Shown piece after piece: positions 8,390 through 44,196 of a stretch of DNA of 46,132 bases (position 1 is its first letter; each line of letters begins with the position of its first letter). The notes beneath the pieces are model-generated. The model was not told the origin of the DNA, made no database searches, and saw only the letters and a program-made list of their open reading frames with translations. The stretch lies in the NCBI GenBank assembly GCA_945897465.1, contig CAMDFK010000026.1, positions 1-46,132 on the forward strand. The letters run 5' to 3'. This stretch comes from Limnohabitans sp. Rim8 (GTDB taxonomy: Bacteria; Pseudomonadota; Gammaproteobacteria; Burkholderiales; Burkholderiaceae_C). Made by a program: the position numbers and the translations under genes.

Positions 8390-9268
8390 TCAATTGATCT
8401 TGAGCAAGGCTTGGCCCATCCGAATTTGCTCGCCCGGCGCAATGCCCTCGGCCAAGGAAAAGCCCGGCGGTACAAACACCAAAATGGTCGAGCCATGCTC
8501 GAACCAGCCCATTTCCTGGCCCTTGACATAGGCCGCATCACAAGGCATTTCGTTCGGCCCTTGGTAGCGCAAATTCAGCAGCACATCGACCGCATGAAAA
8601 CGCATGCTGGCCACCAACACCGCTGCCACCGGCACGATCAAGAAGGGCACGCCCTCTTGCGTTTGCATGTGCAGCACCGCCCGTTCGTTTTTGCAAAACA
8701 GCTCTTGCACGCGCTTCAAGGCCACCGGGTTCACATTCCAGGTGTCGCCCGAGATGTAGGTCACATGCTGCAGCTGCACATCATGTGGTGCATGAAAGCG
8801 GTGGTACATGCTGCTGGTCAGGCGCAGGGTGATGTAAGTGCCCCCCTCCAGCGCGGCAGGCCAAAGCTGGCAGCGCTCTGAGGTGCCCAGCAAAGTCTGC
8901 AACTGGTACGGAAAACCTTTGGCCTGAAACACTTGGCCCTGCGTGATGGTGCCGCAGGCCCCCACGATGGCGTCACAAGGCGATGTCATGAACGCAGGGT
9001 CTGGGTTGACGACCCGCGCACCGGGCGCCAATTCACGGGTGAAACAAGCGTGCAAACTGTCAAATTTTTTGAGCTTGGCATCGCTCAAATCCAGATCACT
9101 GAACCAGCCCCACACCGCCATCGACGACTTCACGACCCAAGGGTGTTGGATTTGACTCCACCACCCCATGAAACGGGTCAGGGTGATGCGCGGGATGCGG
9201 TTGGTGAGCAAGAAATTCAGGTCTTCTTGCAGCATCCAATTTTGAAAAATTCGACGAATCTTCATCAT
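8390..9268 (-). CDS. psd: Phosphatidylserine decarboxylase (pyruvoyl-dependent)
   Basis: A membrane-associated enzyme making phosphatidylethanolamine from phosphatidylserine. The self-cleavage site is GST within GWFEHGSTILVF (Ser about residue 260), which yields the pyruvoyl-bearing alpha chain of about 33 residues. The other family residues are visible: SPCDAIV (Asp about 99) and MYHRFHAPHD (two His). I chose the ATG at 9268; a TTG at 9280 is also open. No phosphatidylserine synthase lies beside it. Instead it is divergent from a class-III aminotransferase, with 52 bases between the chosen starts, so it may be a second, specialised decarboxylase rather than the housekeeping one. Confidence 0.92.
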   Translation of the reverse strand: MMKIRRIFQNWMLQEDLNFLLTNRIPRITLTRFMGWWSQIQHPWVVKSSMAVWGWFSDLDLSDAKLKKFDSLHACFTRELAPGARVVNPDPAFMTSPCDAIVGACGTITQGQVFQAKGFPYQLQTLLGTSERCQLWPAALEGGTYITLRLTSSMYHRFHAPHDVQLQHVTYISGDTWNVNPVALKRVQELFCKNERAVLHMQTQEGVPFLIVPVAAVLVASMRFHAVDVLLNLRYQGPNEMPCDAAYVKGQEMGWFEHGSTILVFVPPGFSLAEGIAPGEQIRMGQALLKIN

Positions 9269-9269
9269 G

Positions 9270-9303
9270 TTGTCACTCAATTTGAATAAAAAGAAATTTT
9301 CTT
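9270..9303 (+). promoter_or_regulatory. Weak PHO-box-like site between psd and the aminotransferase gene
   Basis: TTGTCAC-TCAA-TTTGAAT at 9270-9287 matches the doubled CTGTCAT at 8 of 14 bases, with a poor -10 (TTTCTT) 10 bases later. Another TTGTCAT stands at 9302-9308. The first unit overlaps the psd start region. It is reported because both neighbouring genes could share it; on its own it is weak. Confidence 0.25.
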
Positions 9304-10999: not shown

Positions 11000-11608
11000 T
11001 CAGCGACCTGTTTGAAACTTGGCGTCTGCGAAGCGCTCACCACGCAGCAGCTGCCAAGGCGCCTTGTGGTACAGGTAGATGTCGTGGAAGGGATCGGTCA
11101 AGATCTTGGTCATCCACACCAAACCTGTTTGAACGTCATGCAGGAAAAACAAATGCACCGTGCGAAACAGCAAGGCTGCCACACCCAAGTACAACCACGC
11201 ATAACCCACTGCGCGTAAAAACTCGAACCAGGTTTCATGCGCAGGCAGCAATCCCAGAAGACCCGGATTCATGTAAATGATCAAAGGCAACAAGGCCCAA
11301 ACACTCAACAACACCACTTTGCGGCGCAAGTTGTAACCCACCTTGATCTCTTCTTTGAATTCATTGGTTGCCTCGTTGACGTGGTCATAACCCAAGGGCT
11401 CAAAGAAAAAGTGACCGGCTTGTCGGGAGGTCATAGAGACCATCCAGGCCAACAAAGCCGCCATGGCTGGATCGATCCACAACAAGCCATAGGCCACCAC
11501 AAAAGCCGATGCACTGAGCAAGTGCAAAGACTGGTTGATGCGGCAGTGGTGGTAGTAACGGTGATCGTCCCAACGCTGAACTTCCAAAGCTTTCAAGAAA
11601 TCTTTCAC
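11000..11608 (-). CDS. Mpo1/DUF962-like integral membrane protein
   Basis: A 202-residue protein with about four hydrophobic segments. Two histidine-rich motifs stand out: YYHHCRINQSLHLLSA near the start and SRQAGHFFFEPLGYDH about 50 residues later, with a third (HLFFLHD) near the end. The spacing resembles the YHxxxxNxxxH and QxxGHxxFE motifs of the Mpo1/DUF962 family, whose yeast member is an iron dioxygenase in fatty-acid alpha-oxidation. I chose the GTG at 11608 because GAGG lies 5 bases upstream and a start here fits the candidate promoter; TTG/ATG codons at 11647-11638 extend the frame. It is divergent from the GT4 gene. A lipid-chain-modifying role is inferred. Confidence 0.55.
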   Translation of the reverse strand: MKDFLKALEVQRWDDHRYYHHCRINQSLHLLSASAFVVAYGLLWIDPAMAALLAWMVSMTSRQAGHFFFEPLGYDHVNEATNEFKEEIKVGYNLRRKVVLLSVWALLPLIIYMNPGLLGLLPAHETWFEFLRAVGYAWLYLGVAALLFRTVHLFFLHDVQTGLVWMTKILTDPFHDIYLYHKAPWQLLRGERFADAKFQTGR

Positions 11609-11636
11609 AAGCACCTCACAAATTGAATGTGTGGAC

Positions 11637-11670
11637 ATCATCAACAATTCGTGTGAAAAAACAGTGACAA
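11637..11670 (-). promoter_or_regulatory. PHO box and -10 for the Mpo1-like gene
   Basis: On the minus strand, TTGTCAC-TGTT-TTTTCAC (11670-11653) is followed after exactly 10 bases by the -10-like GATGAT (11642-11637). Nine of 14 bases match CTGTCAT repeated. The predicted transcript starts near 11630, leaving a leader of about 22 bases with the GAGG site before the GTG at 11608. It stands back to back with the site for the GT4 gene. Confidence 0.55.
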
Positions 11671-11675
11671 GGCTT

Positions 11676-11709
11676 TTGTCATCAAACTGTTAAATCCATC
11701 GTTCAGGAT
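11676..11709 (+). promoter_or_regulatory. PHO box for the GT4 glycosyltransferase gene
   Basis: TTGTCAT-CAAA-CTGTTAA at 11676-11693 matches the doubled CTGTCAT at 11 of 14 bases, the best in the window, and the spacer is A-rich as in E. coli sites. A weak -10 candidate CAGGAT lies 10 bases further on (11704-11709), which would put the transcript start almost on the ATG at 11716; TTAAAT at 11690-11695 is another possible -10. Confidence 0.6.
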
Positions 11710-11715
11710 CGAAGC

Positions 11716-12921
11716 ATGCATGAATCAGACGATGCGACTTATTTGGTCGAGAATTTTATACCCGCCAATGCCCCACTGCGCATTGCGGTAGTGACCGAAA
11801 CCTGGCCTCCCGAGGTCAATGGTGTCGCACTGACCCTGTCGCGATTGATCCAGGAGCTCAGCCAACGCCAACATACGATTCAGCTCATCCGGCCACGCCA
11901 AGACCGCCACGAGACGGGAAGCCACCGAGAAGGCTGGAGTGAATTGCTGCTCAAAGGCATGCCGATCCCACGCTACCCCCAACTCAAACTGGGCTTTCCC
12001 AGCAAAAAATCCTTGATCCAAGCTTGGACGCTGCAACGGCCTGACTTGGTGCACATCGCCACCGAGGGGCCATTGGGCTGGTCCGCCTTGCAAGCGGCCA
12101 GGGTCTTGCGATTGCCCGTCACCTCCGACTTCAGAACCAATTTTCAAAGCTACAGCAAACACTACGGTGTCGGTTGGCTGCAAAGACCCATCGTGGCTTA
12201 CCTGCGAAAATTTCACAACCGCACCTTGTGCACCATGGTGCCCACCCAGGCCATGCACAATCAGCTCAAGCTCTTGGGTTTCAATAACCTCCAGGTGGTG
12301 GCTCGCGGTGTGGACACCCAACTTTTCACACCCAGCAAACGCAGCATCGATTTGCGCCGCCAATGGAAAGTGAATGACAACACTGTGGTCATGTTGTCGG
12401 TGGGGCGCTTGGCGGCAGAAAAGAACCTGGATTTGACCGTCAAAACCTACCAGGCCTTGAAACAGAACAACCGCCCAGTTCAGCTTGTTTTTTGCGGCGA
12501 TGGTCCCTACCGAGCCAAACTCCAAGCCGATTGCCCAGAGGCCATTTTCATGGGCATGGCCACACATTCGCAATTGGCGGTGGCCTATGCCAGTGCAGAT
12601 TTGTTTGTTTTCCCCAGCCTGACCGAAACGTTTGGCAATGTGACCTTGGAAGCACTGGCCAGTGGCACCCCTGTCCTGGCTTTTGACTGTGCTGCCGCCA
12701 AAGAAGTGATTCACGACGAACACAACGGCTGGCTGGTGGCTGGTGAGGACGCCCAGCGGTTTGTCCTGCGTGCCCTGGCGATCACCCAAAACGCATCGAC
12801 TCTGGAAGCAGCTCGGAAAAACGCCGCACCTAGCATTCAGAAATGGGAGTGGCCCAGCATTGCCTCCCAAGTCGAAAACATGTTCCGTAGGGTCTTAGCA
12901 ACTGCCTTAACCGAGCGCTGA
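11716..12921 (+). CDS. GT4-family glycosyltransferase, MgtA/SQD2-like
   Basis: A 401-residue GT-B fold retaining glycosyltransferase. The N-terminal segment RIAVVTETWPPEVNGVALTL is typical of GT4 enzymes that act on lipids or mannosides (MgtA, SQD2). The donor-site EX7E motif is in SLTETFGNVTLEALASGTP, and the segment VSVGRLAAEKNLDL begins the C-terminal domain. No signal peptide or helix is seen, so it acts on the cytosolic face of the membrane. A strong PHO-box candidate precedes it, and ugd and lplT lie next to it, which favours a phosphorus-free glycolipid as product; this is inference. The ATG at 11716 has no good ribosome site. It overlaps the convergent lplT by 15 bases. Confidence 0.85.
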   Translation: MHESDDATYLVENFIPANAPLRIAVVTETWPPEVNGVALTLSRLIQELSQRQHTIQLIRPRQDRHETGSHREGWSELLLKGMPIPRYPQLKLGFPSKKSLIQAWTLQRPDLVHIATEGPLGWSALQAARVLRLPVTSDFRTNFQSYSKHYGVGWLQRPIVAYLRKFHNRTLCTMVPTQAMHNQLKLLGFNNLQVVARGVDTQLFTPSKRSIDLRRQWKVNDNTVVMLSVGRLAAEKNLDLTVKTYQALKQNNRPVQLVFCGDGPYRAKLQADCPEAIFMGMATHSQLAVAYASADLFVFPSLTETFGNVTLEALASGTPVLAFDCAAAKEVIHDEHNGWLVAGEDAQRFVLRALAITQNASTLEAARKNAAPSIQKWEWPSIASQVENMFRRVLATALTER

Positions 12922-14148
12922 ATTGGGCAATGCCGACTTGTTTCGCCAAGGCCAAACAGCCAGCCACAAGGGCAACGACAAACACAGCATGATGGCCAAC
13001 AAGGGCCACTCCCATGCAACCAACAGACTGTAAATTCCCAACACCACCAAGACACTCAGATTCTCGTTGAAGCCCTGTACAGCAATGGATCGACCCGGGG
13101 GCATGATCTTATGACCACGGTGCTGCAGCAGCGCGTTCATGGGCACCAACAACATGCCCCCAGCCCACCCAGCAAGCAGCAGCATGGGCACGGCCAACCA
13201 AAGACTCTGCGTGAGGGCCAGTGCCGGCATCAAACAAGCCAGCACCATGGCCCACACCATCTGCTTGCGGGCGCGGAAAATTCGACTGGTGAATGCCGCC
13301 ATGGCCGCTCCACCGATGACCCCCAAAGCGACAAGGCCTTGCAAATACGCACCATGTTGAAGCGTCAAACCAGCATGGGACTGCGCCCAAACCAGCACCA
13401 CAAATTGCAGTGCAGCACCCACCCCCCAACTGAATGTGGTCACCCGCAAGGAAACACCCCCCAAGGGATCTCGCCACAATTTCAAATTGTTCGTCCAAAA
13501 GGCCGACCAACGCAGGTCTGACCATGCCCATGCCGGCTGCGCAGGTGAGCGCAAGGCGTACATGCCCGCATTGAGGATGGCTGAAAGCACATACAACAAA
13601 CAGATCACAGCCAGGCCCATACCGATTTGGGTTTCAACCAACCCACTGTTCAAGGGCAATGTCCAAACAGCTGCAGCCCCTTGCTCTGGGAATGGTCCTG
13701 CGCTCATCAACCAACCACCCAAGACCACACCCCACAAAACAGACAGCACCACAGACACTTCCAGGAAAGCATTGGCTTTGACCAAGCCTGCCGCAGGCAC
13801 GGTTTCAGTGAGCAAGCCATATTTTGCAGGGGCGTACACCGAGGCAGCAAAACCAGTCAGGGCAAAAGCCAATATGGGGTGCGCTCCAGTCCACAGCGCG
13901 ATGACCGCCAACAACTTGAGCAAGTTCATGACCAACATGACATGGCGTTTTTGAAACGCATCGGCCAATGGCCCCACCAAACTGGCCAGCACCACATAAG
14001 ACACGGTGAAGGCCATTTTCAACACCGGCGCCCACCATGCAGGATAGCCCTGCTCGTTCAAGAAAAAGATGCCCAGCAATAAAAAGGCGTTGTCTGCCAG
14101 CCCACTGAAAAACTGGGCCAGGATCAAAAAGACAAAACCCTTAGGCAT
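12907..14148 (-). CDS. lplT: Lysophospholipid transporter LplT (MFS)
   Basis: A 413-residue inner-membrane protein of the major facilitator superfamily with about 12 helices. The N-terminal [20 protein letters not shown] and the loop [17 protein letters not shown] are typical of LplT, which flips lysophospholipids inward for reacylation. The usual partner acyltransferase (Aas) is not next to it. Its ATG overlaps the 3' end of ugd by 8 bases, so the two are translationally coupled. Placement behind ugd and near psd supports a membrane-lipid context. Confidence 0.85.
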
Positions 14149-15574
14149 TCATCGATTCGGACGATGTAGCTTCTTTCACCGACACCCCGAAATCCATCAA
14201 CTGCGCCAAGTCGTTGCGACGGCCCACGCCTTGGTACGCCATGCCCAGTTCACTGAGTGCCTCGGGGTTGTAGAGGTTGCGGCCGTCCAGAATGAAGGGT
14301 TTACGCATGATCGCCTTCATGGCCTCAAAATCCGGGTTGTGAAAATTTTTCCACTCGGTCAACACCATCAAGGCATCTGCACCTTCCAAAGCTTGCATGT
14401 CTGAAGGAGCCAATTCAAATCGCTCCAACAACTGCGCCTCTTCGCTCATGTCCAGACGCAAAGCTTCGAGGGCCTGAGGACCCGCCACAGGGTCAAAGGC
14501 AGTGACGTGAGCACCGCGCAACAACAATTGACGAATCACGACTCGGCTGGGTGCCTCGCGCATGTCATCGGTGTTGGGCTTGAAGGCCAGGCCCCAAACC
14601 GCAATTTTCCGACCGGACAAATCAAGCCCCATGTGCTCGGTCAGTCGATCAACCAAAATTGTTTTCTGACGCTCATTGACCAACTCGGTGGCACTGACCA
14701 CAGCCATGCTGTGCCCATGGGCTTTGGCGGTGTTCACCAAGGCCTGTGTGTCCTTGGGGAAACAACTGCCACCATAGCCACAACCCGCATACAAAAAGCT
14801 GTGCCCAATTCGGCTGTCGGCGCCGATGCCACGGCGAATGTGGTCTACATCGGCCCCTAGCACATCGGCCAAGTTGGCCATTTCGTTCATGAAAGAGATG
14901 CGTGCGGCCAGCATGGCGTTGGCTGCGTATTTGGTCAACTCGGCACTGCGCACATCCATCCACACGGTGCGGGCGTGGTGGCGGTTGAAGCTGGCATACA
15001 AATCACCCATCATGCGACGGCTGCGGGCATGGTGCGGCCCCTCATCCACACCGACCACAATGCGGTCGGGGCGCATGAAATCATCTATGGCGGCCCCTTC
15101 TTTCAGAAACTCCGGATTGGACACAACGTCAAACAAATCAGAGGTCATTCCCCGGTGCACCAACTCGTGCGAAATCGCCGCACGCACCTTGTCGGCAGTA
15201 CCCACCGGCACGGTGGATTTGTTGACCACCAACTTGAAACCCTTCAAGTGCCGACCAATGGTGGCCGCCACAGACAAAACGTGGCCCAAGTCGGCCGAGC
15301 CGTCTTCAGCGGGAGGCGTACCCACGGCGATGAACAGAACGTCACCGTGCTCTACCGCCTCACATGCATCGGTGGTGAAACGGATGCGACCATCGGCTCG
15401 GTTGCGATTGAGCAGTTCTTTCAGGCCAGGCTCGTAAATCGGAACTTCACCCTCTTGCAAGGCACGAATTTTTTCATCATCCTTGTCCAGACAGACCACC
15501 TTGAAACCCAGGTCCGACAAGCATGCGCCTGTGACCAAACCGACATAACCCGAACCGATGACTGTGACACGCAT
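14141..15574 (-). CDS. ugd: UDP-glucose 6-dehydrogenase
   Basis: A 477-residue cytosolic enzyme oxidising UDP-glucose to UDP-glucuronate with two NAD+. Visible motifs are the NAD-binding [13 protein letters not shown] at the N-terminus, the central [20 protein letters not shown], and the catalytic cysteine in [14 protein letters not shown] site lies 7 bases before the ATG. The product feeds capsule, LPS or glucuronosyl lipids. Here it stands 137 bases behind phoR on the same strand, with its own PHO-box candidate upstream, and it is coupled to lplT. That placement suggests supply of sugar nucleotide for glycolipid synthesis under phosphate limitation (inference). Confidence 0.95.
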
Positions 15575-15636
15575 GGCAAAACTCCAAATTTACTCAACAT
15601 ATTCCACTTCAATCGTGAATCTAGCGTGTCAATTTC

Positions 15637-15654
15637 ATGAATAAATCACGACAG
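15637..15654 (-). promoter_or_regulatory. Candidate PHO box upstream of ugd
   Basis: On the minus strand CTGTCGT-GATT-TATTCAT (15654-15637) matches the doubled CTGTCAT at 10 of 14 bases. The hexamer 10 bases downstream (CGCTAG) is a poor -10, so its activity is uncertain. It is 63 bases before the ugd ATG. Confidence 0.35.
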
Positions 15655-15711: not shown

Positions 15712-17046
15712 TCAAGCAGCTTCAGCGCTTGCCATCACAACTCGGCTTTGAGGAAACACCAACTTGAATGTCGAGCCTTGGCCCAACACGCTCTCGATGC
15801 GCAACTCCCCACCATGGCGTTGCATGACGTGCTTGGTGATGGCCAGCCCCAAGCCTGTGCCACCTGTTTCTCGGGACCGGCTGCGGTCCACCCGGTAAAA
15901 GCGCTCGGCCAAACGCGGCAAATGTTCTGCCGCAATACCCGGGCCTGAGTCCTGGACTGCAAACTTCAAGCCTTCGGGGGTAATGGACCAATGCAGCTCA
16001 ATGCGCCCCCCTAATGGGGTGTATCGGATCGCATTGCTCACCAAGTTGGACACCGCACTCAACAACTCCGATCGTGTGCCCAGAACATGCACATCGGGCA
16101 CTGGCGCAAATTTCAATCGGTGCACAGGGCCATCGCCATTTTTGGCCATCCAATCTGAGAACGCTTGTGCTTCTGTGGTGACCTGCAGCATCAATGCCAC
16201 CAAAGACACTTTCTCTTGGGTGCTGGGCAACTGGTTGCCTTCAAGTTGCGACAGCATCAACAAATCGGCCACCAAGGACTGCATCCGATCAGATTGGACC
16301 GACATGAGTTGCAGATAGTGTTGGGTTTCCTCGGCACCCAGGGGAATGGACTGCAAGGTTTCCACAAAGCCGCTGAGCACCGTCAAAGGCGTTCGAATTT
16401 CATGCGAAACGTTGGCGACAAAATCGCGTCGCATGGCATCGGCTTGCGCAACAGCGGTGATATCACGCGTCAAAAGCAGCAATCGACCATCACCATAGGT
16501 GTGGAGCTGAACAGACAATTTTTGGCGATTCAACACTGTGCTGGCGCGACCTTCAATGATGGTCTCTGTAACGTGGCTGTCCTGCGCAAAATACTTGGCA
16601 AATGCAGGATCACGTACCAAGTGCACGATGTGCTGCAACTTGTCCCTCTGAACATCCAATCCAAGATGGGCCGCGGCGGTGTCGTTGCACCATTCAATGC
16701 GAGCTTGTTCATCGAGCAAAACAACGCCGTTGGGTGAGGCTTGAACCGCCTGCAGGAAATCCTGCAATTGTTTTTGGTGCACGGCGGCCAACTTCTCCTG
16801 CTGGCGCAACAAGCGCTGAACGCGCACCGAGATCTCACGCCAAACACCTTGCCAAGGTGGGTCTTGGCGCAAAACCGGTTCACTCAGCCAACGTTCAAGA
16901 CGGTCCAACTTCCACAACAGTGAAAGCCCGTAAATCAGCATGGCGATCAAGGCCGACAGCGCAGCTCCCAAGGCACCGCCCATGAACCAACCAGGAACTC
17001 CCGCCAAGCCCACCAAAAAGAGCATTTCGAGAATCCAAAAAAACAT
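15712..17046 (-). CDS. phoR: Phosphate regulon sensor histidine kinase PhoR
   Basis: A 444-residue inner-membrane sensor kinase. Two hydrophobic segments fill residues 1-45, followed by a linker and a PAS-like domain (about 95-195). The phosphoacceptor is His215 in FVANVSHEIRTPLTVLSGF. The ATPase part has an N-box (NLVSNAIRYTP), a G1 box (DSGPGIAAEHL) and a G2 box (GGTGLGLAI). The lack of a periplasmic sensing domain is typical of PhoR, which reads phosphate status through PstSCAB and PhoU. It lies 13 bases behind phoB in the same operon. Confidence 0.95.
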   Translation of the reverse strand: MFFWILEMLFLVGLAGVPGWFMGGALGAALSALIAMLIYGLSLLWKLDRLERWLSEPVLRQDPPWQGVWREISVRVQRLLRQQEKLAAVHQKQLQDFLQAVQASPNGVVLLDEQARIEWCNDTAAAHLGLDVQRDKLQHIVHLVRDPAFAKYFAQDSHVTETIIEGRASTVLNRQKLSVQLHTYGDGRLLLLTRDITAVAQADAMRRDFVANVSHEIRTPLTVLSGFVETLQSIPLGAEETQHYLQLMSVQSDRMQSLVADLLMLSQLEGNQLPSTQEKVSLVALMLQVTTEAQAFSDWMAKNGDGPVHRLKFAPVPDVHVLGTRSELLSAVSNLVSNAIRYTPLGGRIELHWSITPEGLKFAVQDSGPGIAAEHLPRLAERFYRVDRSRSRETGGTGLGLAITKHVMQRHGGELRIESVLGQGSTFKLVFPQSRVVMASAEAA

Positions 17047-17059
17047 GCAAATCCTGGCT

Positions 17060-17755
17060 TCAGGCAGAGGGCGTCGGCGTGAAACGGTAACCTGCGCCTC
17101 GCACGGTCTCGATCATGATGCCCGCCTCACCCAAAGACTCGCGCAGGCGTTTGACGTGCACATCCACCGTGCGCTCTTCAATGTAAACATGGTCACCCCA
17201 GACCTTGTCGAGCAAAGCACCTCGGCTGTGCACCCGCTCAGGGTGGCGCATGAGGTAATGCAAGAGCTTGAACTCGGTAGGACCCACTTTGAGCGGTTTG
17301 TCGGCCAAATTGACGCGGTGTGTGTCGGCATCGAGCTGCAATTCGCCCATTTTGACCACCCCACCAGAAGCCTCTGGCACACGGCGACGCAAAACAGCAC
17401 GTATGCGGGCCAACAACTCTCTTGGAGAGAACGGCTTCACAATGTAATCGTCCGCGCCAGCATCAAGGCCCGCGACGCGGTCAGCCTCGTCACCGCGCGC
17501 AGTCAGCATCAAAATGGGCACCGCCTTGGTCCTTGAAGAGCCACGCCACTTGCGGGCCAAAGCCAAGCCGCTCTCGCCGGGCAGCATCCAGTCCAGCAAG
17601 ATCACATCGGGCAGAACTTCGTCCAACTCACGCTGGGCTGTTTCGGCATCGATGGCCCACACAGGCTGAAAGCCGTTGTGTCGCAAATTCACCGCAATCA
17701 GCTCGGCAATGGCGGGCTCATCCTCAACAATCAGGATGCGAGGAATGGTTCTCAT
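17060..17755 (-). CDS. phoB: Phosphate regulon response regulator PhoB
   Basis: A 231-residue OmpR/PhoB-type regulator. The receiver domain shows acidic residues in VEDEP (11-13), the phosphorylation site Asp55 in VILLDWMLPG and the conserved lysine in IVKPF. The C-terminal winged-helix domain ends with RTVDVHVKRLRESL and VRGAGYRF, the DNA-recognition part. It should bind the PHO boxes listed here. Its start codon overlaps the phoU stop (ATGA), so the two are translationally coupled. Confidence 0.96.
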   Translation of the reverse strand: MRTIPRILIVEDEPAIAELIAVNLRHNGFQPVWAIDAETAQRELDEVLPDVILLDWMLPGESGLALARKWRGSSRTKAVPILMLTARGDEADRVAGLDAGADDYIVKPFSPRELLARIRAVLRRRVPEASGGVVKMGELQLDADTHRVNLADKPLKVGPTEFKLLHYLMRHPERVHSRGALLDKVWGDHVYIEERTVDVHVKRLRESLGEAGIMIETVRGAGYRFTPTPSA

Positions 17756-18450
17756 TGGACCGCTTTTTCAATCTCGGTCAAGGCGGTGTGGCGCACATCG
17801 GCCCCTTTAACCACATAAATCACAAATTCAGCGATGTTTTTGGCATGGTCACCAATGCGCTCAATGGCCTTGGCCACAAACAGCAAGTCCAAGCTGGCCG
17901 AAATGGTGCGTGGGTCTTCCATCATGTAGGTCACCAGCTTGCGCATAAAACCGTTGAATTCGGCGTCGATCAAGTCGTCCTCTTTGAGGATGACCAAGGC
18001 CATGTTCACGTCCAAGCGGGCAAAAGCATCGAGTGCTTTTCTCAACAAGCCGGTGGCCAAATCAGCGGCAATGCGCAACTCCGATGAAGGCAGGTTGCGT
18101 GGGCTGCCCTGCTCCAGAATCAGCTTGACCATGCGAGCAATGCGATCGGCCTCATCGCCTGCACGCTCCAAGTTGCCCGTGATTTTAGAGATGGCCATCA
18201 GCAAACGCAGATCGCGTGCGGTGGGTTGGCGGCGGGCGATGATTGAGGCCAATTCGGCATCGATTTCGACCTCCAGGGCATTGACCTGCCGCTCGGTGGC
18301 CACCACTTGATCGGCCACTTCAGAGCTGAACTGCGCCAAGGCATACACCGCATGGCGGGTTTGCGACTCCACCAAACCACCGAGCTCTAATACGCGAGAG
18401 GAGACGCCAGTGAGTTCGGCATCGAATTGACTTGAAATATGCTTGTCCAT
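17752..18450 (-). CDS. phoU: Phosphate transport regulator PhoU
   Basis: A 232-residue, all-helical cytosolic protein with two PhoU repeats, the normal length. The metal-binding-type stretches GDEADRIARM and ERIGDHAKNIAEFV occur once in each half. PhoU links the PstSCAB transporter to PhoR and holds the kinase in its phosphatase state when phosphate is plentiful. It sits between pstB and phoB with a 13-base gap upstream and a 4-base overlap downstream. Confidence 0.95.
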   Translation of the reverse strand: MDKHISSQFDAELTGVSSRVLELGGLVESQTRHAVYALAQFSSEVADQVVATERQVNALEVEIDAELASIIARRQPTARDLRLLMAISKITGNLERAGDEADRIARMVKLILEQGSPRNLPSSELRIAADLATGLLRKALDAFARLDVNMALVILKEDDLIDAEFNGFMRKLVTYMMEDPRTISASLDLLFVAKAIERIGDHAKNIAEFVIYVVKGADVRHTALTEIEKAVQ

Positions 18451-18463
18451 AAAGGTCTCCTGG

Positions 18464-19237
18464 TCAGCCGAAACGGCCAGTGATGTAGTCTTCGGTTTCT
18501 TGTTTGGCTGGCTTCATGAAAATCTGCTCGGTCTGACCAAATTCGACCAACTCACCCAGGTACATGTAAGCCGTGAAGTCGGACACACGCGCAGCTTGCT
18601 GCATGTTGTGTGTGACGATGGCCACGGTGTAGTCTTTCTTCAATTCGCTGACCAGCTCTTCGACTTTGGCCGTCGAGATCGGGTCCAAAGCCGATGTAGG
18701 CTCATCCAGCAAGATGACCTTAGGTTTGACGGCTACAGTGCGGGCAATGCACAGGCGCTGCTGCTGACCGCCCGAGAGCGACAGACCGCTTTGGCCAAGC
18801 TTGTCTTTGACTTCGTTCCAGATGGCCGCTTTGGTGAGGGCAGACTCGACGCGCTCATCCATGTCAGAGCGGCTCAGGTTCTCGTACAAACGCACACCAA
18901 AAGCGATGTTGTCGTAAATCGACATAGGGAACGGCGTGGGTTTTTGGAACACCATGCCAATTTGCGCACGCAGCAAGTTCAGGTCTTGGCCTTTGTCCAA
19001 GATATTCTGGCCATATAACTTGATCTCGCCTTCGGCACGCTGCCCTGGGTAGAGGCTGTACATGCGGTTGAGCGTGCGCAGCAAGGTGGACTTGCCGCAA
19101 CCGGACGGTCCAATAAAGGCCGTGACACGGTGCTCGGCGATGTCCAGGTTGACGTTTTTCAGGCCTTTGAACTTGCCGTAATAAAAGTCCAGATTGCGCA
19201 CTTCGATGGCGTTTTGAGTCGGTGTCTTGTCAGGCAT
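18464..19237 (-). CDS. pstB: Phosphate ABC transporter ATP-binding protein PstB
   Basis: A 257-residue ABC ATPase that powers high-affinity phosphate import. Walker A is GPSGCGKST (residues 43-51), the signature [13 protein letters not shown], and Walker [13 protein letters not shown]. The N-terminal [15 protein letters not shown] is typical for PstB. It follows pstA after 54 bases and is followed by phoU, the standard order. Confidence 0.97.
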
Positions 19238-19291
19238 GTGGATTCCTGTGAATTCAAAAATGATTAACGTAGGTGATCGATTTAAGCGGTC

Positions 19292-20152
19292 TCAGACCGA
19301 CTGCTTTTCTCTGAAGAACACGCGGGCCAAAATGTTGAGTAACAACACCGCCATGGTGACCAACAATGCGCCCCCCCAAGCCAGACGAATCCAGTTGTCA
19401 TAGGGGCTCATGGCAAACTGGAAAATCACCACCGGCAAATTGGCCATGGGTTTGGTCATGTCCGCATTGAAAAACTGGTTGTTCAGTGCCGTGAAAAGCA
19501 AAGGTGCGGTTTCACCACTGATACGGGCCACCGCCAACAAAACACCGGTTATCACGCCGCTCTTGGCCGCACGCAAGGTGACGGACATCGATACCTTCCA
19601 ACGAGGTGCACCCAGGGCAAATGCAGCTTCACGCAAACTGCCGGGCACCAGGCGCAGCATGTTCTCAGTGGTGCGCATCACCACCGGCACGGCGATCAGG
19701 GTCAGAGCCAAGCTGCCAGCATAGCCGGAGAAGCCACCCAAGGTCGCCACAGCGATGGCGTACACAAACAAACCAATCACAATGGACGGAGCCGACAGCA
19801 TGATGTCCGTCACAAATCGAGTGGTCTCGGCTGTTTTGCTTTGATCACCGTATTCGGTGAGGTAGATACCCGCCAAGATGCCCACCGGCGTGGCCACCAA
19901 TACAGAGAGTCCCACCATCATCAAGCTGCCCAGGATGGCGTTGCGCAAGCCACCACCCTCAGTGCCTGGCGCTGGCGTATCCTTGGTCAGAATATTCCAG
20001 TCAAGTGCTGCAAAACCATTGGAAAACAACACCACCAAAATCCACATCAGCACCGTCAGCCCTAAAGCCATGGCGATCATGGAAGTGACCATGCCCCAAG
20101 CATTGGCCAAACGACGACGGCGGTACAAGGCCAGATTCATGTTCATCGACAT
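19292..20152 (-). CDS. pstA: Phosphate ABC transporter permease PstA
   Basis: A 286-residue inner-membrane permease with about six transmembrane helices. The early motif SNGFAALDWNILTKDTP and the coupling-loop region LREAAFALGAPRWKVSMSVTL (EAA-type loop that contacts PstB) identify PstA. One base separates its ATG from the pstC stop codon. Confidence 0.95.
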   Translation of the reverse strand: MSMNMNLALYRRRRLANAWGMVTSMIAMALGLTVLMWILVVLFSNGFAALDWNILTKDTPAPGTEGGGLRNAILGSLMMVGLSVLVATPVGILAGIYLTEYGDQSKTAETTRFVTDIMLSAPSIVIGLFVYAIAVATLGGFSGYAGSLALTLIAVPVVMRTTENMLRLVPGSLREAAFALGAPRWKVSMSVTLRAAKSGVITGVLLAVARISGETAPLLFTALNNQFFNADMTKPMANLPVVIFQFAMSPYDNWIRLAWGGALLVTMAVLLLNILARVFFREKQSV

Positions 20153-20153
20153 G

Positions 20154-21143
20154 TCAGAACCCCTTGGCTTTTTCAGCGCGGTTGATCATGATCTTGGCAC
20201 TGGCCAAGACCACAAAAGTGATGACGAACAGCAAGAAGCCGAGCGCAAACAAAGAAGAAATATGGAAATCATCGGCCTCACCAAACTCGTTGGCGAGTGT
20301 GGATGCAATCGAAGTGCCTGGTGAAAAAAGCGAAGTGGGCATGCGGTTGGCATTGCCAATCACAAAGGTCACCGCCATGGTCTCGCCCAAGGCGCGACCC
20401 AAACCCAGCATGATGCCGCCAATCACGCCTTTTTGGGTGTAGGGCAACACGATTTTGCGAACCACTTCCCAGGTGGTGCAGCCCAAGCCATAAGCCGATT
20501 CGCGCAGGATGGGCGGGGTGATTTCGAACACGTCGCGCATCACCGCGGCCACAAAAGGCAAGACCATGAAGGCCAACACAATGCCGGCGGCCAAAATGCC
20601 CATGCCGTTGGGGGCGCCCCCAAACAGGAATCCAATCAGCGGCATGCCACCCAGCACCTCGCCAAGAGGCACCTGGATGTAATCGGCAAACAAAGGCGCG
20701 AACACAAAAAGACCAAACATACCGTAGATGATGGAGGGCACCGCCGCCAACAACTCAATGGCCGTTCCCAAGGGGCGACGCAACCACACAGGGCATGTCT
20801 CGGTCAGAAACACTGCAATGCCAAAGGCCAGAGGCACAGCCACCAACATGGCAATGCCAGCACTGGCCAGCGTACCGACGATCGCAATCGCGGCACCAAA
20901 TTCTTCGTTGATGATGTCCCACTCAACGTACCAAATGAAACGTGCACCAAACTTGGCAAATGTGGGCCAGGCGTTGATGAACAAAGAAACGATGATTCCG
21001 GCCAAAGCCACCAGAACCAACAATGAGAACAACTGCGTCAGCCGGTGAAACAAGACGTCTTGCAGTCGCTGGCGCTTGACCACAGCCAACATACGGCTGT
21101 TGCTGTCAGCACTGGAAAGGGGGGTTTGCATGTCTTGACCCAT
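20154..21143 (-). CDS. pstC: Phosphate ABC transporter permease PstC
   Basis: A 329-residue inner-membrane permease with about six helices that forms the channel with PstA. Recognisable parts are [14 protein letters not shown] near the first periplasmic loop and the EAA-type loop [21 protein letters not shown] chose the ATG at 21143; a TTG one codon upstream and an ATG at 21131 are alternatives. It is separated from pstS by 81 bases containing a hairpin that may reduce read-through. Confidence 0.95.
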
Positions 21144-21159
21144 CAATCAAAAAAAGCAC

Positions 21160-21206
21160 CAAATTAAACAAGAAATCCGTCGGTCACCGAATGACAACCG
21201 ACGGAT
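21160..21206 (-). terminator. Attenuator-like hairpin between pstS and pstC
   Basis: A perfect 10-base stem ATCCGTCGGT/ACCGACGGAT (21206-21197 with 21184-21175) with a 12-base loop is followed on the minus strand by a T-rich tail (TTTCTTGTTT). It lies 18 bases after the pstS stop. Partial termination here would give more PstS than PstCAB, as is usual for binding-protein operons. Confidence 0.65.
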
Positions 21207-21224
21207 GGCAGACCTGAGTCTGTA

Positions 21225-22244
21225 TTACTTCTGGATTTGTGACCAGACTTTGGCGCGGATCTGATCGGTCAAGCTGTCAGGCAAGGCCACGTAGTCGAGG
21301 TCCGAAGCCATTTTCTTGCCGTTCTTGAAAGACCAGTCGAAGAACTTCAGGGCTTCAGCAGAAGCGGCTTTGTCAGTTGGGCTCTTGTACATCAAGATGA
21401 AAGAGGCTGTGCTGATGGGCCAGCTGTCATTGCCTTTGGCATTGACCATGGATATGCCCATGCCGGGAACGCTGAACCAGTCAGCACCAGCGGCTGCAGA
21501 AGCGAAAGCCTCTTCGCTGGGGCTGACGTACTTGCCGTTGGCGTTTTGCAACTGCATGAAATTCATCTTGTTCTTCTTGACGTAGGCATACTCAACATAA
21601 CCCACAGAACCCTTGATGCGGTTGACGTTAGCGGCCACGCCTTCGTTGCCCTTGCCACCCACGGAAGAGGCGGCTGGCCACTTCACAGCGGCACCGGTAC
21701 CCACTTTTTCTTTCCACAGAGGGCTGACGGTGGTCAGGTAGTCGGTGAAGTTGAAAGTGGTGCCCGAGCCATCGGCGCGGTGCACAACGGTGATGGTCTG
21801 ATCAGGCAATTTTTTGCCTGGGTTCAACTCGGCGATTTTCTTGTCGTTCCAGTTGACGATGTAACCCGTGAACATCTCAGCCAAGACGGGACCTGTCACA
21901 CGCAGCTCGCCGGGCTTGAAGCCGTCCAAGTTCAACACAGGCACGGTGCCACCGATGATGGCTGGGAATTGAACCATGCCATCTTTGTCCAAGTCCGCAC
22001 CCTTGACTGGGGCGTCAGAGGCACCGAAAGTCACGGTCTTGGCGCGGATTTGCTTCAGGCCGCCGGACGAACCGATGGACTGGTAGTTCAAGCCAGTGCC
22101 AGTCTCTTTTTTGTAGGCTTCAGCCCACTTGGCATAGATGGGGAATGGGAAAGTAGCGCCAGCGCCAGTGATGTCGGCGGCAAAGCTGGCTGCAGCCATG
22201 GCGCTCAGGCCAATAGCAGCTACAAAAGATTTCAATTTCAACAT
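21225..22244 (-). CDS. pstS: Periplasmic phosphate-binding protein PstS
   Basis: A 339-residue exported protein. The frame is open 13 codons further upstream, but the ATG at 22244 has AAGGAG 6 bases before it and begins a clear signal peptide (MLKLKSFVAAIGLSAMAAAS, cut after SFA). Mature PstS features follow: ITGAGATFPFPIYAKWAEAY, YQSIGSSGGLKQI and VHRADGSGTTFNF, which bind phosphate. It is the first gene of pstSCAB-phoU-phoB-phoR and has the clearest PHO-box promoter layout. Confidence 0.97.
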   Translation of the reverse strand: MLKLKSFVAAIGLSAMAAASFAADITGAGATFPFPIYAKWAEAYKKETGTGLNYQSIGSSGGLKQIRAKTVTFGASDAPVKGADLDKDGMVQFPAIIGGTVPVLNLDGFKPGELRVTGPVLAEMFTGYIVNWNDKKIAELNPGKKLPDQTITVVHRADGSGTTFNFTDYLTTVSPLWKEKVGTGAAVKWPAASSVGGKGNEGVAANVNRIKGSVGYVEYAYVKKNKMNFMQLQNANGKYVSPSEEAFASAAAGADWFSVPGMGISMVNAKGNDSWPISTASFILMYKSPTDKAASAEALKFFDWSFKNGKKMASDLDYVALPDSLTDQIRAKVWSQIQK

Positions 22245-22309
22245 TAAAGCTCCTTGTTCAGGTGTAAGTTCAAGGCCGCCCAAGCAGGTTTATCTTGGGG
22301 ACTGGAATC

Positions 22310-26103: not shown

Positions 26104-26318
26104 CAGTGACTTTCAAGAGTGAATGGATAATTTGAAATTAATCTCTCTTTGTGACAAGAATAAGAAAATTCATGTCATATTTTTGACGCTCAAAAAGACC
26201 CATTTGATGTCCGCAATGGCCATCAAATTTCGCAAATTTTTAATATTTTTGTCACGACAACATCATCCAGAAACCGCAAATTGGGAAGGTTCTAACACTT
26301 AACCCACAGGAGTTTTCG
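26104..26318. promoter_or_regulatory. Divergent promoter region of the 5'-nucleotidase gene and phoD, with PHO-box candidates
   Basis: This AT-rich stretch holds several GTCA/TGAC motifs. Towards phoD: TTGTCAC-GACA-ACATCAT at 26249-26266 (9 of 14), then after 10 bases CAAATT (26277-26282). Towards the 5'-nucleotidase gene on the minus strand: TTTTCTT-ATTC-TTGTCAC at 26168-26151 (9 of 14), then after 10 bases TAATTT (26140-26135). A further ATGTCAT at 26172-26178 stands between them. The positions fit PhoB control in both directions, but each half-site is imperfect. Confidence 0.42.
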
Positions 26319-28040: not shown

Positions 28041-28070
28041 AGTCAGGCGCCTTGGGGCGCCTGACTTTTT
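28041..28070 (+). terminator. Rho-independent terminator of phoD
   Basis: A perfect 11-base stem AGTCAGGCGCC/GGCGCCTGACT with loop TTGG runs into TTTTT, 18 bases after the phoD stop. The phnD PHO box starts two bases later. Confidence 0.93.
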
Positions 28071-28071
28071 A

Positions 28072-28105
28072 ATGTCACGAAAATGTCTTTTTGCGCTGCT
28101 AGCCT
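28072..28105 (+). promoter_or_regulatory. PHO box and -10 of phnD (transporter 1)
   Basis: ATGTCAC-GAAA-ATGTCTT at 28072-28089 matches the doubled CTGTCAT at 10 of 14 bases. TAGCCT follows after exactly 10 bases (28100-28105). The start codon is about 28 bases further on, with GAGG before it. Confidence 0.72.
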
Positions 28106-44162: not shown

Positions 44163-44196
44163 GTTTCACGAAAATGACACTTTAGGAACACATGAT
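44163..44196 (+). promoter_or_regulatory. PHO box and -10 of the second phnC operon
   Basis: GTTTCAC-GAAA-ATGACAC at 44163-44180 (8 of 14) shares the core TCACGAAAATG with the phnD site at 28072. CATGAT follows after exactly 10 bases (44191-44196). The transcript would start about 26 bases before the ATG at 44229. The divergent phosphatase gene could share the site. Confidence 0.65.

Follow-up and report, generated by a model that had tools for sequence, protein, structure and literature searches.

Results

Organization of the locus

The analyzed stretch of DNA (46,132 nucleotides; hereafter, the window) makes up one of the 48 contigs of a 3.0 Mb Limnohabitans genome. It contains a leftward gene for an Mpo1-like membrane protein (11000..11608, minus strand) and, divergent from it, a rightward gene for a GT4 glycosyltransferase (11716..12921, plus strand). 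Sequence and coordinates bear out the first-pass annotation in that two PHO boxes stand back to back in the intergenic region with a gap of 5 bases, i.e. TTGTCAC-TGTT-TTTTCAC for the Mpo1-like gene (11653..11670, minus strand) and TTGTCAT-CAAA-CTGTTAA for GT4 (11676..11693, plus strand), and that a -10-like hexamer, GATGAT (11637..11642, minus strand), is located exactly 10 bases past the minus box. The plus box has an equivalent -10 hexamer, CAGGAT (11704..11709, plus strand), 10 bases past the box, that was absent from the earlier annotation. All four elements were assigned from the sequence together with relatives. Both boxes consist of two 7-base direct repeats 4 bases apart, and in both the second repeat is degenerate (TTTTCAC and CTGTTAA, respectively).

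We place the start of the Mpo1-like protein (202 aa) at a GTG at 11608, which is kept in most rows of the orthologue alignment and lies behind a Shine-Dalgarno-like GAGGTG (11612..11617, minus strand). The start at 11647 of the 215-aa open reading frame listed for this gene is disfavoured because it lies upstream of the promoter's own -10 hexamer. GT4 is an ordinary two-domain enzyme by domain search (PF00534, 107.9 bits; PF13439, 75.4 bits).

The gene pair is embedded in a cluster of phosphate- and lipid-related genes. To its right are lplT, of the lysophospholipid transporter family (12907..14148, minus strand; NF008397, 369.4 bits, cut-off 297), and ugd, encoding a UDP-glucose/nucleotide-sugar dehydrogenase (14141..15574, minus strand; TIGR03026, 432.3 bits, cut-off 189.8), which scores 474 bits against the TuaD model, below the cut-off of 700, and which we propose as a source of UDP-glucuronate. 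They are followed by phoR, phoB, phoU, pstB, pstA, pstC, and pstS (15712..22283, minus strand; named from their Pfam domains and order), and right of pstS by phosphatase-type genes, a phosphonate transporter, and C-P lyase genes. To the left of the Mpo1-like gene are genes for a class III aminotransferase, phosphatidylserine decarboxylase (psd), and PPK2. Because lplT and ugd (12907-15574) overlap by 8 bases, they probably share a promoter with the tandem PHO-like heptamers TATTCAT-GAAA-TTGACAC-GCTA-GATTCAC found before ugd by scan and sequence (15615..15643, minus strand); GAATAT (15599-15604) lies 10 bases past these heptamers, which were also seen, by eye and unscored, in approximately 10 of 19 relatives. 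A PHO-like site before the aminotransferase gene (9259..9276, plus strand; scan and sequence) overlaps the psd start and was recognized, again by eye and unscored, in all 12 relatives displayed.

Elsewhere in the window, several PHO-like sites lie at 26151-26266 between a divergent 5'-nucleotidase-domain gene and phoD, a triple heptamer repeat (28061-28089) lies just before a phosphonate-binding protein gene (phnD-like), and a further site, GTTTCAC-GAAA-ATGACAC (44163-44180), lies ahead of open reading frames at 44192/44217. A PHO-like site inside psd (8972-8989, minus strand), second in the pstS matrix scan described below, was taken as chance, as it lies within a coding part.

Gene order was compared in hand-picked regions of Limnohabitans and of other genera. 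In 21 of 22 Limnohabitans regions, the genes follow one another as psd, aminotransferase, Mpo1-like, GT4, lplT, ugd, and one Limnohabitans region has a phoD gene interposed in this six-gene order. In other genera, the Mpo1-like gene lies beside GT4 in 14/14 regions and psd and the aminotransferase gene are present in 13/14, and the complete six-gene order is found in only 5/14. We also note that a metagenome-assembled genome titled Akkermansia muciniphila (L063) holds a GT4 79% identical to that of the window and is probably mislabelled or contaminated.

Conservation of the two PHO boxes

Within the window, the strength of each box depends on the measure used. Scored against the E. coli consensus, the plus box matches at 11/14 positions, a score reached by 45 of 2000 shuffled intergenic regions; sites with this score are expected approximately 4.1 times per shuffled window. 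Thus, the earlier score of 11/14 holds, but the box is not the closest consensus match in the window, as it ties with seven other sites for the best score. The minus box matches at 9/14 positions (rank 32; 1069/2000 shuffled intergenic regions). A matrix scan with a shuffled control had been suggested as a check; trained on pstS sites, it gave the reverse picture. With this matrix, built from 20 distinct sites out of 29 of 30 pstS loci (the locus L040, for which a wrong start was chosen, contributed no box), the minus box takes third place over the whole 46 kb and its score is reached by 22/2000 shuffled intergenic regions, and with a pooled-heptamer matrix it ranks second (7/2000); the plus box ranks only 27th (440/2000) and 19th (254/2000), respectively. 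We conclude that no single measure secures either box within the window: the pstS matrix favours the minus box only and the E. coli consensus the plus box only.

We therefore rely on orthologous loci, where both boxes are conserved as the first-pass annotation had asked to see. The promoter set comprises 32 Limnohabitans loci, including the window, out of 40 GT4-bearing genomes among 60 searched. A search of the family matched in 65 of 200 genomes, including that of the window, and supplied 32 loci outside the genus (the 29 best and three hand-picked); the near-copies L010/L011 and L083/L086 were counted separately. Using relaxed box patterns that were written after the first loci had been viewed, at least 13/14 positions of the minus box are matched in 32/32 Limnohabitans loci, and the pattern is also present in 23/32 loci of other genera; in the relaxed pattern for the minus and pstS boxes the first box base is free, and the box was chosen independently of the start codon. 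The plus box, with at least 12/14 relaxed positions and a phased start codon, is present in 31/32 Limnohabitans loci (L024 fails) and in 24/32 other family loci. Among the loci outside the genus, L069, L074, L092, L095, and L138 lack the plus-box geometry, and L087, L091, and L094 fall short only through a box score of 11.

The hexamers are conserved in phase with the boxes. The hexamer 10 bases past the minus box has A2, A5, and T6 in 32/32 Limnohabitans loci, and that of the plus box has A2 and T6 in all qualifying loci (31/31 in Limnohabitans, 24/24 in the rest of the family), with A5 in addition in the 31 from Limnohabitans. As an internal yardstick, all 29 pstS boxes found in Limnohabitans have a hexamer with A2, A4, and T6 at the same 10-base step that separates the minus and the plus box from their hexamers. 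The distance between the two boxes varies from 5 bases to several tens of bases in other species while each box keeps its own phasing; therefore, they represent two separate promoters and not one palindromic block. In a more distant Limnohabitans group (L025-L029), a third PHO-like box, e.g. TTGTCAC-TGAA-TCTTCAT, lies between the two, 91–109 bases before the start of the GT4 alignment.

Because both boxes are conserved in the Limnohabitans loci, although the distance between them varies, we regard both as secure and conclude that the two PHO boxes are real. A chance resemblance is rejected on the strength of this conservation. That the boxes bind a different OmpR-family regulator, or resemble PHO boxes by chance, would accord with the tie of the plus box with seven other sites and its unremarkable pstS matrix score and with the unremarkable consensus score of the minus box; we nevertheless consider this highly improbable in view of the conservation, the phasing, the 10-base step shared with pstS, and the neighbouring Pho genes. 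The earlier proposal that both genes are under PhoB control and respond to phosphate starvation thus gains support as a prediction from the conserved boxes with phased -10 hexamers, and further support from the location beside pstSCAB-phoU-phoBR and the PHO-like heptamers before ugd-lplT. Very probably, depletion of phosphate would activate GT4 and the Mpo1-like gene through the two boxes.

A fixed distance between the PHO box and the GT4 start codon

In the rightward promoter, the box is followed by 10 bases, the -10 hexamer, 6–8 bases, and the GT4 start codon. Consequently, an in-frame ATG or GTG lies 22–24 bases after the plus box in 31/32 Limnohabitans loci and in 24/32 family loci of other genera, and in 27/32 of the latter if any box score is allowed. 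In shuffled upstream regions, the same geometry arose in 0.2% (Limnohabitans) and 0.1% (other family loci) of trials. The pstS boxes of Limnohabitans lie 74–93 bases from the ATG. Outside the family, 28 of 29 matches were examined; in this set of GT4 homologues from elsewhere in the class, the geometry is present in 5/28, and an Mpo1-like gene within approximately 1.5 kb flanking GT4 is absent from all 28 loci.

Transcription typically starts approximately 7 bases after a -10 hexamer. Because the ATG of GT4 lies 6–8 bases past its -10 hexamer, the GT4 mRNA would begin at the ATG; from the -10 spacing, we predict that transcription begins with the A of this ATG (11716, plus strand). Consistent with a leaderless mRNA, a Shine-Dalgarno core precedes only 5 of the 55 phased GT4 starts (out of 64 loci overall) versus 22 of 30 divergent Mpo1-like starts, the latter count being approximate because three of the 30 (L130, L133, L140) lack a usual start codon. 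We infer that GT4 is expressed from a conserved, PhoB-dependent, leaderless mRNA with a predicted start site. Alternatively, the mRNA may not be leaderless but arise from another upstream promoter, or translation may begin at a start codon further in. The poorly conserved N-terminus of GT4, where alignments with relatives frequently do not start before residues 8-21, and the predicted nature of the start site leave room for this, yet the positional conservation of the start codon and the scarcity of Shine-Dalgarno cores relative to the Mpo1-like arm make it unlikely.

Leaderless mRNAs have precedents in the order. In Burkholderia cenocepacia, transcription of 72 genes begins precisely at the start codon and that of a further 42 at most 10 bases away, 24 of these transcripts being tRNAs (PMC4603805), and leaderless genes were predicted in 9 of 71 beta-proteobacterial genomes in the portion of PMC3160421 that addresses them. 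Among the open-access literature matches listed, as far as their excerpts go, none describes a leaderless PhoB-controlled gene in proteobacteria.

Co-inheritance of GT4 and ugd

GT4 was detected in 40 of the 60 Limnohabitans genomes. The Mpo1-like gene, ugd, and the aminotransferase gene are each present in 39 of these 40 genomes and in none of the 20 genomes without GT4. The exceptions are fragments: in G011, GT4 is cut by a contig end and contains a stop, and G005 is 73% complete. Restricting the comparison to genomes at least 90% complete, ugd is present in 27/27 with GT4 and 0/10 without. The aminotransferase, Mpo1-like, GT4, and ugd genes are neighbours that are present or absent together, as a block. 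This weakens the case for a single pathway from co-inheritance, as the aminotransferase gene is lost with the block too. In a pstS tree of 30 genomes, the contrasts have the same direction in nearly all pairings, but only four are well supported and independent (sign test, p = 0.125).

By sequence, GT4 exceeds no specific NCBIfam cut-off. Its two best NCBIfam neighbours, both far below cut-off, are GlcNAc-phosphatidylglycerol synthase and glucosyl-DAG synthase, and its solved relatives include PimA among sugar and phosphate glycosyltransferases. A second GT4-type enzyme (Agt) is 31–40% identical to the window GT4. It lies directly behind a PlcP-type metallophosphatase gene in the two relatives opened, with abutting coordinates in others, and this appears from the sequence to be the canonical PlcP–Agt arrangement. 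The nine genomes with Agt and no GT4 have no ugd (0/9; E up to 1e-100). The PlcP-type gene, a putative assignment based on context and a Metallophos match, is present in 46 of 49 genomes with GT4 or Agt and in 1 of 11 with neither.

The window genome keeps a PlcP-type gene (L144:3890-4951, G000:C22; PF00149 over cut-off) that shares 85% identity with the gene directly adjoining Agt in G033. Here, it is directly followed by ppk1 with no Agt between them; Agt is absent from the genome in searches with E up to 1e-80 and, thus, there is no canonical PlcP–Agt operon. GT4 appears to stand in for Agt in this genome. We also observed, before ppk1, the PHO-like box TTGTCAT-CGAA-CTGTCGC, followed after 10 bases by TAAAAT.

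In P. aeruginosa (PMC8528852), MGDG is the product of Agt1, whose donor is UDP-glucose. Agt2 has a Pho box of its own and produces GADG from UDP-glucuronate, also taking UDP-glucose to some extent. Because GT4 and ugd co-occur while Agt-only genomes are without ugd, the pattern fits GT4 as an Agt2 counterpart fed by ugd, and the best reading of the data is that GT4 is a predicted Agt2-like glucuronosyl-diacylglycerol synthase with substrates deduced from this context. The proposed likeness of GT4 to Agt2 (PA0842) is drawn from its PHO box, its linkage to ugd, and its gene context.

We also considered that PhoB control is the same while GT4 uses another donor or acceptor, transferring glucose from UDP-glucose to diacylglycerol or acting on a cell-surface glycan, with ugd serving another function of the block. 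The partial use of UDP-glucose by P. aeruginosa Agt2 (PMC8528852, as excerpted), the identity of the distant NCBIfam neighbours of GT4, the inheritance of the genes as a block, and the absence of ugd from 6/14 other-genus regions agree with such a scheme; against it, the Agt-only genomes are without this ugd, and ugd lies near GT4, within the fetched region, in 21/22 Limnohabitans and 8/14 other-genus regions. On balance, we consider a different donor or acceptor rather unlikely and retain glucuronosyl transfer to diacylglycerol as the preferred reading.

The Mpo1-like protein

The window protein matches PF06127 weakly, over the family's first part, at 15.4–15.5 bits and, thus, below the curated cut-off of 24. 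Nevertheless, PF06127 is matched by 31/31 orthologues scanned (E up to 10; best E 9.7e-5), and any other family by at most three of the 31. Therefore, the Mpo1-like identity made earlier recurs throughout the orthologues while being sub-threshold for the window protein itself (15.5 versus 24 bits). The alignment has invariant H20, N25, and H29 in one stretch and Q63, H66, and E70 in a second, a pattern which we take to resemble the PF06127 motif. The window protein also differs from this family in its length (approximately 200 aa) and in a further conserved stretch, DPFHD, at the C-terminus. AlphaFold2 models of five Mpo1-like sequences had a mean pLDDT of 52.7, too poor for a fold search.

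Yeast Mpo1 is a 2-hydroxy fatty acid dioxygenase. An open-access search found no paper that mentions both DUF962 and Mpo1 and, among the matches listed for Mpo1 with 2-hydroxy fatty acid dioxygenase, none by title on bacterial lipid renovation. The genomic link of the Mpo1-like gene to GT4 is firm and its chemistry is not; as a guess, the protein might modify acyl chains, either in the glycolipid or in the phospholipids being degraded. This partner provides an entry point to an uncharacterised family of proteins associated with lipid genes.

Discussion

We suggest that the locus is a divergent PhoB promoter pair in a Pho-linked lipid cluster, in which a leaderless GT4 would make glucuronosyl-diacylglycerol. 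Taken as a whole, we give this explanation a probability of roughly two in three, slightly lowered because no more than 8 of the 14 other-genus regions have ugd close to GT4. At low phosphate, phosphorylated PhoB would bind both back-to-back PHO boxes and replace the -35 contact at each, and RNA polymerase would start from the -10 hexamers 10 bases past the boxes. Leftward transcription would yield a leadered mRNA for the Mpo1-like membrane protein, and rightward transcription, starting at or 1–2 bases before the GT4 start codon, a leaderless mRNA. The neighbouring dehydrogenase Ugd, its gene itself behind PHO-like heptamers, would make UDP-glucuronate, while the PlcP-type enzyme would free diacylglycerol from phospholipids. 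Most likely, GT4 would then transfer glucuronate to diacylglycerol, giving glucuronosyl-diacylglycerol, an acidic lipid free of phosphorus.

The first-pass annotation had proposed that an unstudied pair of genes probably alters membrane lipids. For GT4, the effect on lipids is supported by its lipid-glycosyltransferase neighbours, the co-inheritance with ugd, and the PlcP-type gene without Agt; for the Mpo1-like protein it is a guess. Likewise, the pair as such may be unstudied, and among the open-access matches for Limnohabitans with phosphate and the Pho regulon none concerns this locus by title, but the likely function of GT4 is known from P. aeruginosa Agt2. The lipid pathway is, then, a variant of the known PlcP–Agt lipid renovation, and three features look new: a predicted leaderless PhoB promoter across the family, the partnership with an Mpo1-like protein, and the apparent substitution of GT4 for Agt in one genome.

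Limnohabitans abounds in lakes, which are often limited by phosphorus. If true, a PhoB switch to phosphorus-free lipids would mean that a mechanism shown for marine bacteria and for Pseudomonas also operates in a major group of freshwater bacteria, and the GT4 locus would supply a gene marker for such switching. Moreover, the fixed box-to-start-codon geometry across many genera suggests a directly testable locking of transcription start to translation start, which would sit in a proteobacterial stress regulon. It is a doubtful extension that leaderless PhoB promoters are hard-wired across the family, that translation of GT4 free of Shine-Dalgarno sequences suits starved cells, and that acyl oxidation by the Mpo1-like protein would lead to an undescribed, modified phosphorus-free glucuronolipid in Limnohabitans and the rest of the family.

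The closest known system, as far as its available description goes, is PlcP–Agt1/Agt2 of P. aeruginosa (PA3219, PA3218, PA0842; PMC8528852), which likewise has a glycosyltransferase gene behind a Pho box, another enzyme in addition to the PlcP-linked Agt (here, in relatives), a PlcP-type gene, and a UDP-glucuronate logic. Unlike that system, GT4 belongs to a cluster that is linked to pst-phoBR and also contains the Mpo1-like partner, ugd, and lplT; it is predicted to be leaderless, and the window genome has no PlcP-linked Agt. With the E. coli-type Pho regulon, as summarized in the accessible part of PMC4415409, the locus shares two 7-base direct repeats 4 bases apart, and the same contact of PhoB with sigma70 is predicted here; it differs in its degenerate second repeats, in -10 hexamers that mostly begin with C or G, and in that one arm is predicted to be leaderless. 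Finally, Streptomyces phoR is reported to be a Pho-related gene with a leaderless mRNA (PMC6283541), which begins with the A of its ATG, as predicted for GT4. Whereas phoR belongs to an actinobacterial PhoP system and has its own -10 and -35, GT4 is a lipid gene of a beta-proteobacterium and has a PHO box where a -35 would otherwise stand.
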